Positions 2,608 to 52,857 of a DNA stretch of 56,953 nt are shown here, piece after piece (the stretch's first letter is position 1; every line of letters starts with the position of its first letter). The translations under genes were made by a program, and so were the position numbers. This DNA comes from Kiloniellales bacterium (GTDB lineage Bacteria; Pseudomonadota; Alphaproteobacteria; Kiloniellales; JAKSDN01), in contig JANQLT010000222.1 in assembly GCA_028280455.1 (NCBI GenBank), forward strand, positions 1-56,953, read 5' to 3'. The notes beneath the pieces were generated by a model. The model saw nothing but the letters and a program-made list of their open reading frames with translations, did no database searches and had not been told where the DNA came from.

Positions 2608-3873
2608 CGAGGTCGGCTTCAGCGCCCGGCCCTTGAAGATCGCTTCCTTGCCCAGGCGGTCGCGGACCTTGTCGATGGCGGCCTCGACGTCGGCGCGCTT
2701 CTGGCGGTCCGGGTCCAGCAGGTCGGGGCCGTCCGCCTGCTCGCCGGGCCCCAGGTCGCCGGCGCCGATGCCGATCAGCCGGAACTGCCGGCCGTCCGCC
2801 TCCTTCTCGAGCAGGGGCAGGGCGGTGCGGTAGAGGGTCTCGGCCAGGCGGGTCGCCTGATCGAGCTTGCGGCTGCGGGTCAACAGGCGGAAATCCCTGG
2901 TCTTGAGCTTGAGGGTCACGCTGCCGCCGGCCAGGCCGGCCCGCTTGAGCCGGCGCGAGACGCTCTCGCAGAGCGGCCAGAGCCGGGCGCGCAAGGCCGC
3001 CGGATCGGCGATGTCCTCGCCGAAGGTGGTTTCCGAGGAGACCGACTTGGCCTCGCCGCCGGGCTGCACCTTGCGGGAGTCCTGGCCCCGGGCGAAGCGG
3101 TAGAGGCGGCCGCCGATGGCGCCGTAGCGGGCCACCAGCTCGGCCTGCTCGTGGCGCCGCAGCTCGGCGATCGTGGTGATGCCGTCGCGCGCCAGGCTCT
3201 TCCGCAGCGCCTTGCCGACGCCCCAGATCGTCGAGACCGGCCGCGGCGCCAGGAAGTCCTCGGCCTCCGCCCGGCCGATGACGGCGAAGCCGCGGGGCTT
3301 GTCGAGGTCCGAGGCGACCTTGGCCAGGAACTTGTTGTAGCTCAGGCCGATCGAGACGCTGAGCCCCAGCTCCCGCTCGACCCGCAGCGCCAGGCCGGCC
3401 AGGGTCCGGGCGGCCGGGCCGCCGTGCAGGGAGTCGGTGCCGGAGAGGTCGAGGAAGGCCTCGTCGATGGAGATCGGCTCCACCTGCGGCGTCAGCGCTA
3501 GCATCATGTCCCGGATCGCCTTGCCGTCGGCGCTGTACTTGGCCATGTCGGGCCGGATCACCACCGCCTCCGGACAGGCCTTGAGGGCCTTGAACATGGG
3601 CATGGCCGAGTGCACGCCGTGCACCCGGGCGAGGTAGCAGGCCGCCGAGACCACGCCGCGCCGGCCGCCGCCGACGATGACCGGCTTGTCGCGCAGCTCG
3701 GGCCGGTCGCGCTTCTCGACGCTGGCGTAGAAGGCGTCGCAGTCGATGTGGGCAATGGCGAGGTCGGCCAGCTCGCCGTGGTCGACCAGCCTTGGGCCCG
3801 CACAGCTCGGGCAGCGGCCGCTCTCGGGGGCTGCCGGCAGCTCTGTCAGACAGTCGCGGCACAGTGCGCTCAT
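2587..3873 (-). CDS. dinB: DNA polymerase IV (Y-family) with N-terminal zinc ribbon
   Basis: 428-residue translesion polymerase. The palm carries HIDCDAFYASVEKRD and SIDEAFLDLSG, supplying the metal-binding acidic residues. SIGLSYNKFLAKVASDLDKP and the helix-hairpin-helix region (IWGVGKALRKSL) follow, then the little-finger domain. Ahead of the polymerase is a CxxC...CxxC ribbon (C5, C8, C21, C24), found in a subset of alphaproteobacterial DinB proteins and absent from the E. coli enzyme. The ATG at 3873 is chosen because it begins just before the ribbon and is preceded by a G-rich ribosome binding site. Its 3' end overlaps eipB tail to tail. Confidence 0.92.
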   Translation of the reverse strand: MSALCRDCLTELPAAPESGRCPSCAGPRLVDHGELADLAIAHIDCDAFYASVEKRDRPELRDKPVIVGGGRRGVVSAACYLARVHGVHSAMPMFKALKACPEAVVIRPDMAKYSADGKAIRDMMLALTPQVEPISIDEAFLDLSGTDSLHGGPAARTLAGLALRVERELGLSVSIGLSYNKFLAKVASDLDKPRGFAVIGRAEAEDFLAPRPVSTIWGVGKALRKSLARDGITTIAELRRHEQAELVARYGAIGGRLYRFARGQDSRKVQPGGEAKSVSSETTFGEDIADPAALRARLWPLCESVSRRLKRAGLAGGSVTLKLKTRDFRLLTRSRKLDQATRLAETLYRTALPLLEKEADGRQFRLIGIGAGDLGPGEQADGPDLLDPDRQKRADVEAAIDKVRDRLGKEAIFKGRALKPTSSAVRRR

Positions 3874-4192
3874 CGGACCCCCATGGCCCGTTGGCTCCAG
3901 CATAGAGCCAGATCGCCGGGCGAGACCAAGGTCCTTCATTATAAGGCCGGCGCTGCCGTCGGGCTTGCTCGGTGTCAAGGGTGAGGCCTAGCCTCGGCTC
4001 TCCTCGGTCGGCCCCTGCCGGATTTTCTGCCTGCCGGCCAAAATACTAACGAAAAATTAACTCCCGGAGACCCAGGATTAACGTTCTCGGGCGGGGACGG
4101 CCTGTATCGGCCTAGTACCTGGACATAGTCGCCTTGTAGGTGACTCGCTTAGTCCGAGGATGGGGGCCGCAGGCAGCCGGGGAGACTTGAGG
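3874..4192. other. Divergent intergenic region between dinB and divK
   Basis: 319 bases with an AT-rich island at about 4030-4080, unusual for this genome, which carries a CtrA-type box (annotated separately) and an extra TTAAC half-site near 4079. No RNA gene or repeat recognised. By position it should hold the dinB promoter and the divK-pleD promoter. Confidence 0.55.
4046..4061 (+). promoter_or_regulatory. CtrA-type binding box upstream of divK
   Basis: The sequence CTAA-N7-TTAAC matches the CtrA consensus TTAA-N7-TTAAC with a single mismatch. It lies about 130 bases upstream of divK in an AT-rich island. CtrA control of divK is known in Caulobacter; its operation here is inferred. Confidence 0.6.
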
Positions 4193-51612: not shown

Positions 51613-51960
51613 TCAGTCCGCCGCCGTCCACTCGGCATGGGTCATCGGACGCACGCTGACCTCGCCGTCGGTGATCTTGATCTTGCGGCACTCCTGCGGG
51701 GTGAAGAGCTTGATGCCGATGCGCGGCGGGTCGCTGTAGACCCGCATCTTGACGCCGTGTGTCTCGGTGCCGAAGCGGCCTCGGAGCTTCTCCATCTCCG
51801 TGTCGAGGTGGGCCAGGTTCTCGGATGCCTCGTTGATGATGAAGTAGAACAGGCCGCTGTTGAAGAAGGACTTGTCGCCGAAGGGCGGCAGGTACTGCGC
51901 CCGAAAGACGTGTTCCATGGTGTCGAGGAACTGCTGATCCGTCATCTCCGAAGCGTCCAT
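51613..51960 (-). CDS. 115-residue cytoplasmic protein of unknown function
   Basis: Start ATG at 51960 with GGGAGG upstream. No signal peptide or hydrophobic segment. A helical N-terminus (TDQQFLDTMEHVFRAQYLPP) is followed by an Arg/Lys-rich beta-like region (GVKMRVYSDPPRIGIKLFTP) and a short EVSVRPMTHAEWT end. No family recognised. It is 101 bases from the ABC ATPase gene on the same strand. Confidence 0.65.
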   Translation of the reverse strand: MDASEMTDQQFLDTMEHVFRAQYLPPFGDKSFFNSGLFYFIINEASENLAHLDTEMEKLRGRFGTETHGVKMRVYSDPPRIGIKLFTPQECRKIKITDGEVSVRPMTHAEWTAAD

Positions 51961-52070
51961 CGCGGCCTCCCCTGCCCCTGATGTCAACGACGCCTGATGA
52001 TAGATGAATGCTGCAGATTTGCGACAGCCCTCGCCGGGGCCCGCCCGGCCGCCCGGCCTCCTTCAGAATC

Positions 52071-52145
52071 GATCGGGGCGCCTCGGCGGACCCGGCCGCG
52101 ACGGCCCTCGGCCGTCGCCCCTCGTCCCCAGGCGCCCCGTCGATC
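52071..52145. repeat. Nested GC-rich inverted repeat downstream of the 59-aa gene
   Basis: Outer arms GATCGGGGCGCCT (52071-52083) and AGGCGCCCCGTCGATC (52130-52145) enclose an inner perfect stem GCGACGGCC (52098-52106) / GGCCGTCGC (52110-52118) with a three-base loop. It lies just past the stop of the 59-residue gene, at the end facing the 115-residue gene. No U-run on either strand, so a classical terminator is not indicated. Confidence 0.8.
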
Positions 52146-52163
52146 GGGCAAATCGAGCGGCGC

Positions 52164-52343
52164 TTAGTGGAGCGCAGATCGCGGGAAGCTCGAGCGGCTC
52201 ACCAAGCCTTCGCTCGGGTTGCGACGCTGCAGGCTGCGGGCATAGGCGGCCCACTCCTCCGCCGAGTGCTTGGGCGGTGCTTGATCGATCGCCCGCATCG
52301 TATTGCGCCAGACGCTATTCCAAAAGACCATCAGGATATCCAT
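52164..52343 (-). CDS. 59-residue protein of unknown function
   Basis: MDILMVFWNSVWRNTMRAID then QAPPKHSAEEWAAYARSLQ and an Arg/Ser-rich end. It has a textbook ribosome binding site (AAGGAG, 8 bases before ATG), which is the main support. The first 16 residues are amphipathic with Trp, Phe and Val, possibly membrane-associating. It is divergent from an XRE regulator across a region with two matched operator dyads, so it is probably controlled by that regulator. Could be an antitoxin-like or stress peptide; nothing in the sequence decides. Confidence 0.6.
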   Translation of the reverse strand: MDILMVFWNSVWRNTMRAIDQAPPKHSAEEWAAYARSLQRRNPSEGLVSRSSFPRSALH

Positions 52344-52431
52344 TGTCCCACTCCTTTCCTGGCTGGAGGGACAACTCCACAGCGCAACTACGCGACTCGA
52401 TCAGTTGCACATGAGCATGACGTGAATCTGG

Positions 52432-52476
52432 GCGCACCTTGTGCGCATTGCAAGGAAAAAAGCGCACTGAGTGCGT
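52432..52476. promoter_or_regulatory. Paired operator dyads between the 59-aa gene and the XRE gene
   Basis: Two matching inverted repeats: GCGCAC-CTT-GTGCGC (52432-52446) and GCGCAC-TGA-GTGCGT (52462-52476). Their centres are 30 bases apart, about three helical turns, on the same face of the DNA. This is the layout of a repressor with two co-operative sites, most simply the XRE protein itself. Confidence 0.7.
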
Positions 52477-52533
52477 TTCATTTGTTAATCTGGTTGCAGG
52501 TGGTTTGGCTGGAGATCGACGGACAGCACCGAA

Positions 52534-52857
52534 ATGAGTAACAAAATCAAGAAGAAAGCGGAATCTAAGAAGATCTCCGTCATGGCCCCGGAGGCCTTCC
52601 GGGCCTGGCGGAAGTCGCTGCGACTGTCGCAAAAGGAGGCCGCCGCGGCACTCGGTCTCAAGCGGCGAATAGTCCAGTACTACGAAAAAGGCGAGCGCGA
52701 CGGGGTCCGAATCGAGGTGCCGCGCACGGTTCGCCTGGCCTGCTTCGCGCTGAGCCAGGGGGTTAAGGACTACCCCGGCCCCGCGCCCCAAGCCAGGGCG
52801 TCCGACAAGGAACCGCCCGAGTCCAAAAGCGACGAGCCGGCGGCTGCCGCAGAGTAG
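52534..52857 (+). CDS. XRE-family helix-turn-helix regulator
   Basis: 107 residues: a very basic N-terminus (NKIKKKAESKKIS), an XRE helix-turn-helix (about 18-75: AFRAWRKSLRLSQKEAAAAL, then GLKRRIVQYYEKGERDG), and an acidic, Pro-rich tail. Related short regulators are common in alphaproteobacteria. It is divergent from the 59-residue gene and probably binds the two dyads between them. Confidence 0.85.
   Translation: MSNKIKKKAESKKISVMAPEAFRAWRKSLRLSQKEAAAALGLKRRIVQYYEKGERDGVRIEVPRTVRLACFALSQGVKDYPGPAPQARASDKEPPESKSDEPAAAAE

Follow-up and report, generated by a model that had tools for sequence, protein, structure and literature searches.

A probable Aca1-like repressor switch beside divergent small-protein genes in Alphaproteobacteria

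What is the role of a short palindrome that is repeated between a small gene and an XRE-family regulator? The question is raised by one locus in a stretch of 56,953 nucleotides from a Kiloniellales bacterium (the whole stretch that was analysed is referred to here as the window). The first-pass annotation had described a 59-residue frame, an XRE gene and two dyads with centres 30 bases apart, and both the sequence and the open reading frame list agree with it on all of these; the frame and the XRE gene are divergent and both dyads lie between them (Table 1). The ribosome binding site that it gave to the small gene is likewise present, reading GGAAAGGAGT followed by six bases and then ATG. Our reading, which we consider probable on the strength of sequence comparisons, is that this is a chromosomal switch in which an Aca1-like repressor silences the divergent small gene.

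Just past the small gene, at 52070–52150, a long imperfect GC-rich inverted repeat can be read from the sequence, possibly a terminator or attenuator. A 114-codon frame (51613–51957), also on the minus strand, follows the small gene and is without significant match in Pfam or NCBIfam.

Table 1. Features of the switch locus, in window coordinates
Feature	Position	Strand	Basis or remark
Family A small-protein gene, 59 aa	52164..52343	minus	Start codon 52343–52341, stop 52166–52164; open reading frame
Shine-Dalgarno of small gene, GGAAAGGAG	52351..52359	minus	Read from sequence
Weak -10-like element CAGATT, small-gene promoter	52425..52430	minus	L036 has TATATT there
Dyad 1, GCGCACCTTGTGCGC, GCGCAC-CTT-GTGCGC	52432..52446		Within promoter spacer
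-35-like element TTGCAA, small-gene promoter	52448..52453	minus	17 nt from -10; read from sequence
Dyad 2, GCGCACTGAGTGCGT, GCGCAC-TGA-GTGCGT	52462..52476		XRE side, 30 bp from dyad 1
Putative XRE-family repressor, 107 aa, HTH_3, Aca1-like	52534..52857	plus	Pfam and profile match

Dyads 1 and 2 are the only exact matches to the dyad in the whole window. When one mismatch is allowed, seven strand matches are found against 3.57 expected, and because nine of 100 shuffled sequences also reach seven, one dyad by itself says little. In the 5.94-Mb genome to which the window belongs, the paired pattern is found a single time and its reversed control never, so the pair is not due to chance. The exact full dyad, GCGCAC-N3-GTGCGC, is found at two places in this genome, one being the present locus and the other the inside of an aldehyde-dehydrogenase-like frame (named by eye). 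A genome-wide regulon was considered and rejected, exact single dyads being few: beside the two places in the window's own genome, ten other genomes have from one to seven each, counts that include each locus's own dyads and that compare with matches of the reversed control in four of the ten. Six single-dyad places distant from the XRE gene were examined; four are inside long frames (L029, L123, L126 and L130), and two (L129 and L131) may lie between genes. A search of L029 for relatives of the XRE protein or of the small protein found none. A dedicated local operator is preferred to a genome-wide regulon, with a few extra targets possible.

Recurrence of the dyads beside related regulators was computed in several samples. 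Of 58 genomes, comprising the window's own and its relatives, four (G000, G007, G014 and G036) have the strict dyad pair, always beside the XRE gene. Among 289 genomes drawn from across the class, five have it, adjoining an XRE relative in four; in the fifth (G160) there is no XRE relative within the 1759 bases examined. The XRE protein is matched at E ≤0.001 in 16 of the 58 genomes, and each of the 13 strong ones (E ≤2.5e-26) is preceded within 1000 nt by one or more dyads with two mismatches or fewer. In L013 and L017 a frame on the strand of the XRE gene separates that gene from the dyads, which lie ∼740 nt upstream; no comparable dyad pair accompanies the weaker matches L018–L020, L022 and L023, or L021. 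A scan of genome contigs for XRE relatives, of which the best 80 of 212 were used, showed, in 39 of the 80, a dyad with no more than one mismatch in the 500 nt upstream; in 21 an exact dyad is present, and the 500 nt downstream contain none in any of the 80.

The loci from the 58 genomes were pooled with those from the contig scan and seven same-genome repeats were removed, leaving 90 distinct loci that are not independent, since several are close relatives. At 47 of these 90 a dyad with at most one mismatch lies within 500 nt upstream of the XRE match; control 500-nt pieces taken elsewhere in the same loci contain a dyad in 5 of 908. Six of the 47 dyad loci have one dyad, 24 have two and 17 have three (two or three in 41 of 47), and the spacing of successive dyads is 30–34 bp in 45 of 58 cases, about three helical turns. 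When palindromes were counted without reference to the motif, CGCAC-N3-GTGCG proved to be the commonest upstream, being present at 42 of 89 loci; downstream it did not rank within the first 12.

The first-pass annotation's expectation that dyads would be found upstream of XRE relatives thus holds for these 47 loci and fails for the remaining 43, where the 500 nt upstream contain no dyad even if one mismatch is allowed; the observation itself stands. The titles of 24 of the 43 are Parvularculaceae, Parvularcula or Marinicaulis. Both Caenispirillum loci have dyad variants with two mismatches, and several Parvularculaceae loci keep one degenerate site near the start of the XRE gene. In all three Parvularculaceae-type loci tested with Rfam (L030, L071 and L090), the XRE relative is divergent from a tmRNA gene and ∼60–100 nt from it, the tmRNA being at about 3517–3940 on the minus strand and the XRE match at 4001. 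Beyond the tmRNA, many loci of this type have a frame that by eye resembles the ClpXP adaptor SspB.

Where the dyads fall relative to promoter elements was also computed. Reading towards the small gene, many loci have a TTGAAA, TTGCAA or TTGACA hexamer, then the central dyad, with a TATAAT-like hexamer directly after it. These were scored as -35 and -10 matches out of 12, with spacers of 15–19 nt and no choice by eye, and compared with 200 shuffles of the flanks. Of the 47 dyad loci, 33 reach at least 8/12 towards the small gene and 14 towards the XRE gene, the shuffled flanks giving a mean of 6.8 loci and a maximum of 15; at 9/12 the corresponding numbers are 19 and 4, with a shuffled mean of 1.2 (maximum 4). 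The other 14 of the 47 loci score below 8 towards the small gene. In the window the promoter TTGCAA-N17-CAGATT scores 7/12; its -10 is poor, and the placement of the dyad in the spacer holds. The window's own switch, with this poor -10 and two dyads (L036 also has two, and many relatives have three), is comparatively weak.

These scores bear on an alternative in which the XRE protein activates the small gene, or represses only itself while the small gene is a passive neighbour. Some dyads are indeed on the XRE side, a degenerate match near the XRE start persists at several loci that lack a full dyad, and the distant dyads of L013 and L017, with a same-strand frame before the XRE gene, could be taken in the same way. 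The promoter elements around the dyad, however, face the small gene more often than the XRE gene, and an activator would not normally occupy a -35/-10 spacer. We think this alternative improbable, and continue with repression of the small gene as the preferred reading.

As a direct query the 59-residue protein gives matches in four of the 58 genomes, and its profile in four of the 289 genomes of the class draw; a match of this profile in G161, with a stop codon and no XRE relative, is probably spurious. An iterated profile run on the collected loci finds its family, here called family A, in divergent orientation to the XRE gene at several of them, with the members in L036, L097, L049, L055 and L031 placed by eye after weak or misplaced profile matches and that in L114 by eye only. 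The closest relative of the window protein is in L036, from a Minwuiaceae MAG, and is 46% identical. A second family, C, of 51 to 92 residues, occupies the same position in 22 of the 47 dyad loci. Its carriers include Tistlia consotensis, Novispirillum itersonii and Thalassobaculum litoreum, all of which are in culture. The others are classified as family A (13 loci), as family B, in which a Lys/Ala-rich gene comes first (four), or as having no assigned family (eight), and six of these eight have at least one other small frame there with a loose ribosome-binding match. Relatives of the 59-residue frame thus keep its place in a minority of loci, with family C there in others; like the expectation about the dyads, conservation of the frame holds in part, and the observation is not refuted.

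In L008, L010, L006 and L011 the first gene under the dyads encodes a Lys/Ala-rich coiled-coil protein, whose tail may resemble histone H1, AlgP or PhaF; in G007 and G014 the gene behind it belongs to family A. Two tandem family A-like frames are seen on the small-gene side of L112 (about 1497–2025, the same DNA as L049), the nearer one by eye only. Other neighbours were compared as clusters of frames of at least 70 codons in the flanks of 39 dyad loci. Leaving aside the XRE gene with its antisense frame, and family C, no cluster occurs in more than seven loci, and among frames of this size no further neighbour is therefore common to many loci.

In all 12 pairs of small frames compared, nonsynonymous change falls below synonymous change (pN/pS 0.05–0.56, the weakest, 0.56, being the window against L036), and for this reason the frames look like proteins under selection. 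Searches of Pfam, NCBIfam, PHROGs and PADLOC gave the small protein of the window no significant match to any family, and none of the 13 family A members has a Pfam match at E 0.1. For family C, three Pfam families each have a single match among the 17 members (E 0.019 to 0.1), none of them significant, and NCBIfam gives one match at 0.096 among the 17. The family A model has two helices and is of low confidence (pLDDT 71.3, pTM 0.30). The family C model has a pLDDT of 93.8, and a fold search with it against PDB and BFVD found nothing at E 0.001; a second search gave one entry, with Z 2.2.

Families A, B and C are mixed on a tree of 39 repressors, with at least eight changes compared with a shuffled mean of 14.6. 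Repeated swapping of partners among the three families is not proven, since the well-supported branches force few changes, one for C and two each for A and B.

The recurrence and spacing of the dyads, their place within the promoter and the selection on the small frames together lend good support to the first-pass description of a compact switch-like module. Its further suggestion, that the module might be toxin-antitoxin-like, fares badly. The 59-residue peptide would then be the toxin, and the XRE protein both antitoxin and repressor; XRE antitoxins with palindromic operators are common, and the XRE protein does have weak matches to antitoxins of the MqsA and HipB types. These fall far short of the antitoxin cut-offs, however, with 28 bits against 61.8 for TIGR03830 (MqsA) and 17.2 against 71.65 for TIGR03070. 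The genes are divergent and are not co-transcribed as one operon, the small protein of the window has no significant family match, and related repressors adjoin at least three types of small protein. The window XRE protein also matched no plasmid records, and two phage records at ∼40% identity. A toxin-antitoxin module is, in our judgement, decidedly improbable.

The repressor matches Pfam HTH_3 (E 1.1e-6), and a profile of 11 orthologues searched against solved structures matches NE0471 (E 5.6e-7) and the Aca1 chains 7c0g, 7fa3 and 7vjn (E 1.4e-4 to 1.9e-4). The Aca1 match is limited to the helix-turn-helix (HTH) region, in which 20 of 55 aligned residues are identical with the window protein. 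In PMC9410881, the gel-shift probe for Aca1 contains GGCAC-ACT-GTGCC and GGCAC-AAT-GTGCC, 25 bp apart, and the core GCAC-N3-GTGC is thus common to these sites and the window dyads. The same paper gives V17, R30, Q33, Y34 and R39 as the DNA-reading residues of Aca2. Arg45, Gln48 and Tyr49 of the repressor, invariant in all 11 sequences, have the spacing of Aca2 R30, Q33 and Y34; the position matching R39 is a glutamate, which makes the correspondence with Aca2 only suggestive. In acr-aca operons, as described in PMC9410906, one inverted repeat is always within the predicted core promoter and several families have a second one up- or downstream, most promoters having one repeat only; 386 (15%) of 2599 Aca-like homologues are associated with Acrs. 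The prevalence of single repeats there, the restriction of the Aca1 match to the HTH region, and the fact that promoter palindromes are bound by many HTH repressors weigh against our reading.

Recurrence, spacing, promoter placement and family relationship are results of computation, and from them we infer how binding, repression, cooperativity, autoregulation, a trigger and any action of the small protein might fit together. Each 15-bp dyad would be bound by an XRE dimer through its HTH. At the central dyad, which would fill the -35/-10 spacer of the divergent small gene, bound repressor would exclude RNA polymerase, and the small protein would therefore normally be silent. Dyads 30–33 bp away, on the same face of the DNA, would add cooperative binding, and the dyad on the XRE side probably represses the XRE gene too. 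The small protein would be made once the repressor falls, for example by dilution, degradation or inactivation by a signal. Our confidence in this mechanism is slightly lowered by the fact that direct searches find the 59-residue family in few genomes.

Cas1 was found in six of 14 carrier genomes searched, the window's own included, and not in the other eight, some of which are incomplete; anti-CRISPR activity as a general function of the small proteins is disfavoured on this account. A host-side counter-measure, in which a chromosomal Aca homologue represses incoming acr operons, would suit the Aca1-like protein, the operator core, the Cas1 of the window's own genome and the suggestion, in PMC9410881, that bacteria may carry Aca-like proteins for this, but the repressor has a target of its own adjacent and Cas1 was not found in those eight genomes, making this highly improbable.

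A viral origin was also rejected: seven XRE relatives are in viral contigs, and in the stretches examined none of them has a GCGCAC dyad, even with one mismatch allowed; the paired dyads present in stretches of two viral contigs have no XRE relative in those stretches. In one viral contig (L139:2700–3216) two CGCAC-N3-GTGCG sites 33 bp apart lie in a promoter-like region, the second followed by TATAAA; beyond them come a 30-codon TTG-start frame, seen by eye, and then, on the same strand, the gene of a distant XRE relative, an arrangement like that of acr-aca. Viral sequence at L143:10–117 and L145:11166–11315 has several copies of GCGCACCCAGTGCGC, mostly in 31-bp steps, with no XRE relative in the stretch examined.

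Among the papers listed by literature searches, and judged from titles and the beginnings of abstracts, none appears to describe this switch. The main text of PMC10688885 has neither GTGC nor GCAC, its motifs being in a figure, and no such operator was found in the part of PMC11999139 consulted. Through the analysis, an orphan regulator found in many Alphaproteobacteria is connected with a precise operator and with small proteins of two families or more, which have no significant Pfam match. The findings also suggest that control of the acr-aca type extends beyond mobile elements, and the locus makes testable what Aca-like homologues without Acr association regulate. A broader reading is that several alphaproteobacterial lineages have a chromosomal counterpart of acr-aca, with one conserved Aca1-like repressor and operator grammar and different small proteins swapped in; these would then be inhibitors, domesticated or ancestral, that act on mobile elements, phages or defence systems and are kept silent until needed. 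We offer this as speculation and hold it to be rather unlikely.

Among known systems, the MqsA- and HipB-type XRE antitoxins share a weak HTH similarity with the repressor, but the scores are far under the curated cut-offs, no partner toxin is recognised and the gene order is divergent. Of the solved structures, NE0471 (PDB 2auw) is the one that the HTH domain matches best in the profile search; it differs in being a protein of 170 residues, matched at residues 88–140 only, and is described in the PDB as a hypothetical protein. Another close parallel is with Aca1 and the acr-aca operons, from which the locus differs in several ways. There, aca is downstream of acr in one operon, whereas here the genes are divergent, both in the window and in family A or C loci; those systems belong to phages and mobile elements, and these loci to chromosomal contigs. 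The small proteins here are not recognised as anti-CRISPRs and several types are linked, the sites are mostly 30–34 bp rather than 25 bp apart, and the sequence relationship is distant and confined to the HTH. Because of the operon order, and any association with an anti-CRISPR gene being conjectural, we do not file the locus as an Aca. What the two have in common is a small HTH repressor, related to the Aca family here by a distant HTH-only match; inverted repeats with the core GCAC-N3-GTGC; and a repeat that lies within the core promoter of a gene for a small protein (in 33 of 47 dyad loci it separates the -35 from the -10 of the target gene), accompanied by neighbouring repeats. In these respects the locus appears to work like an Aca1-type repressor switch.
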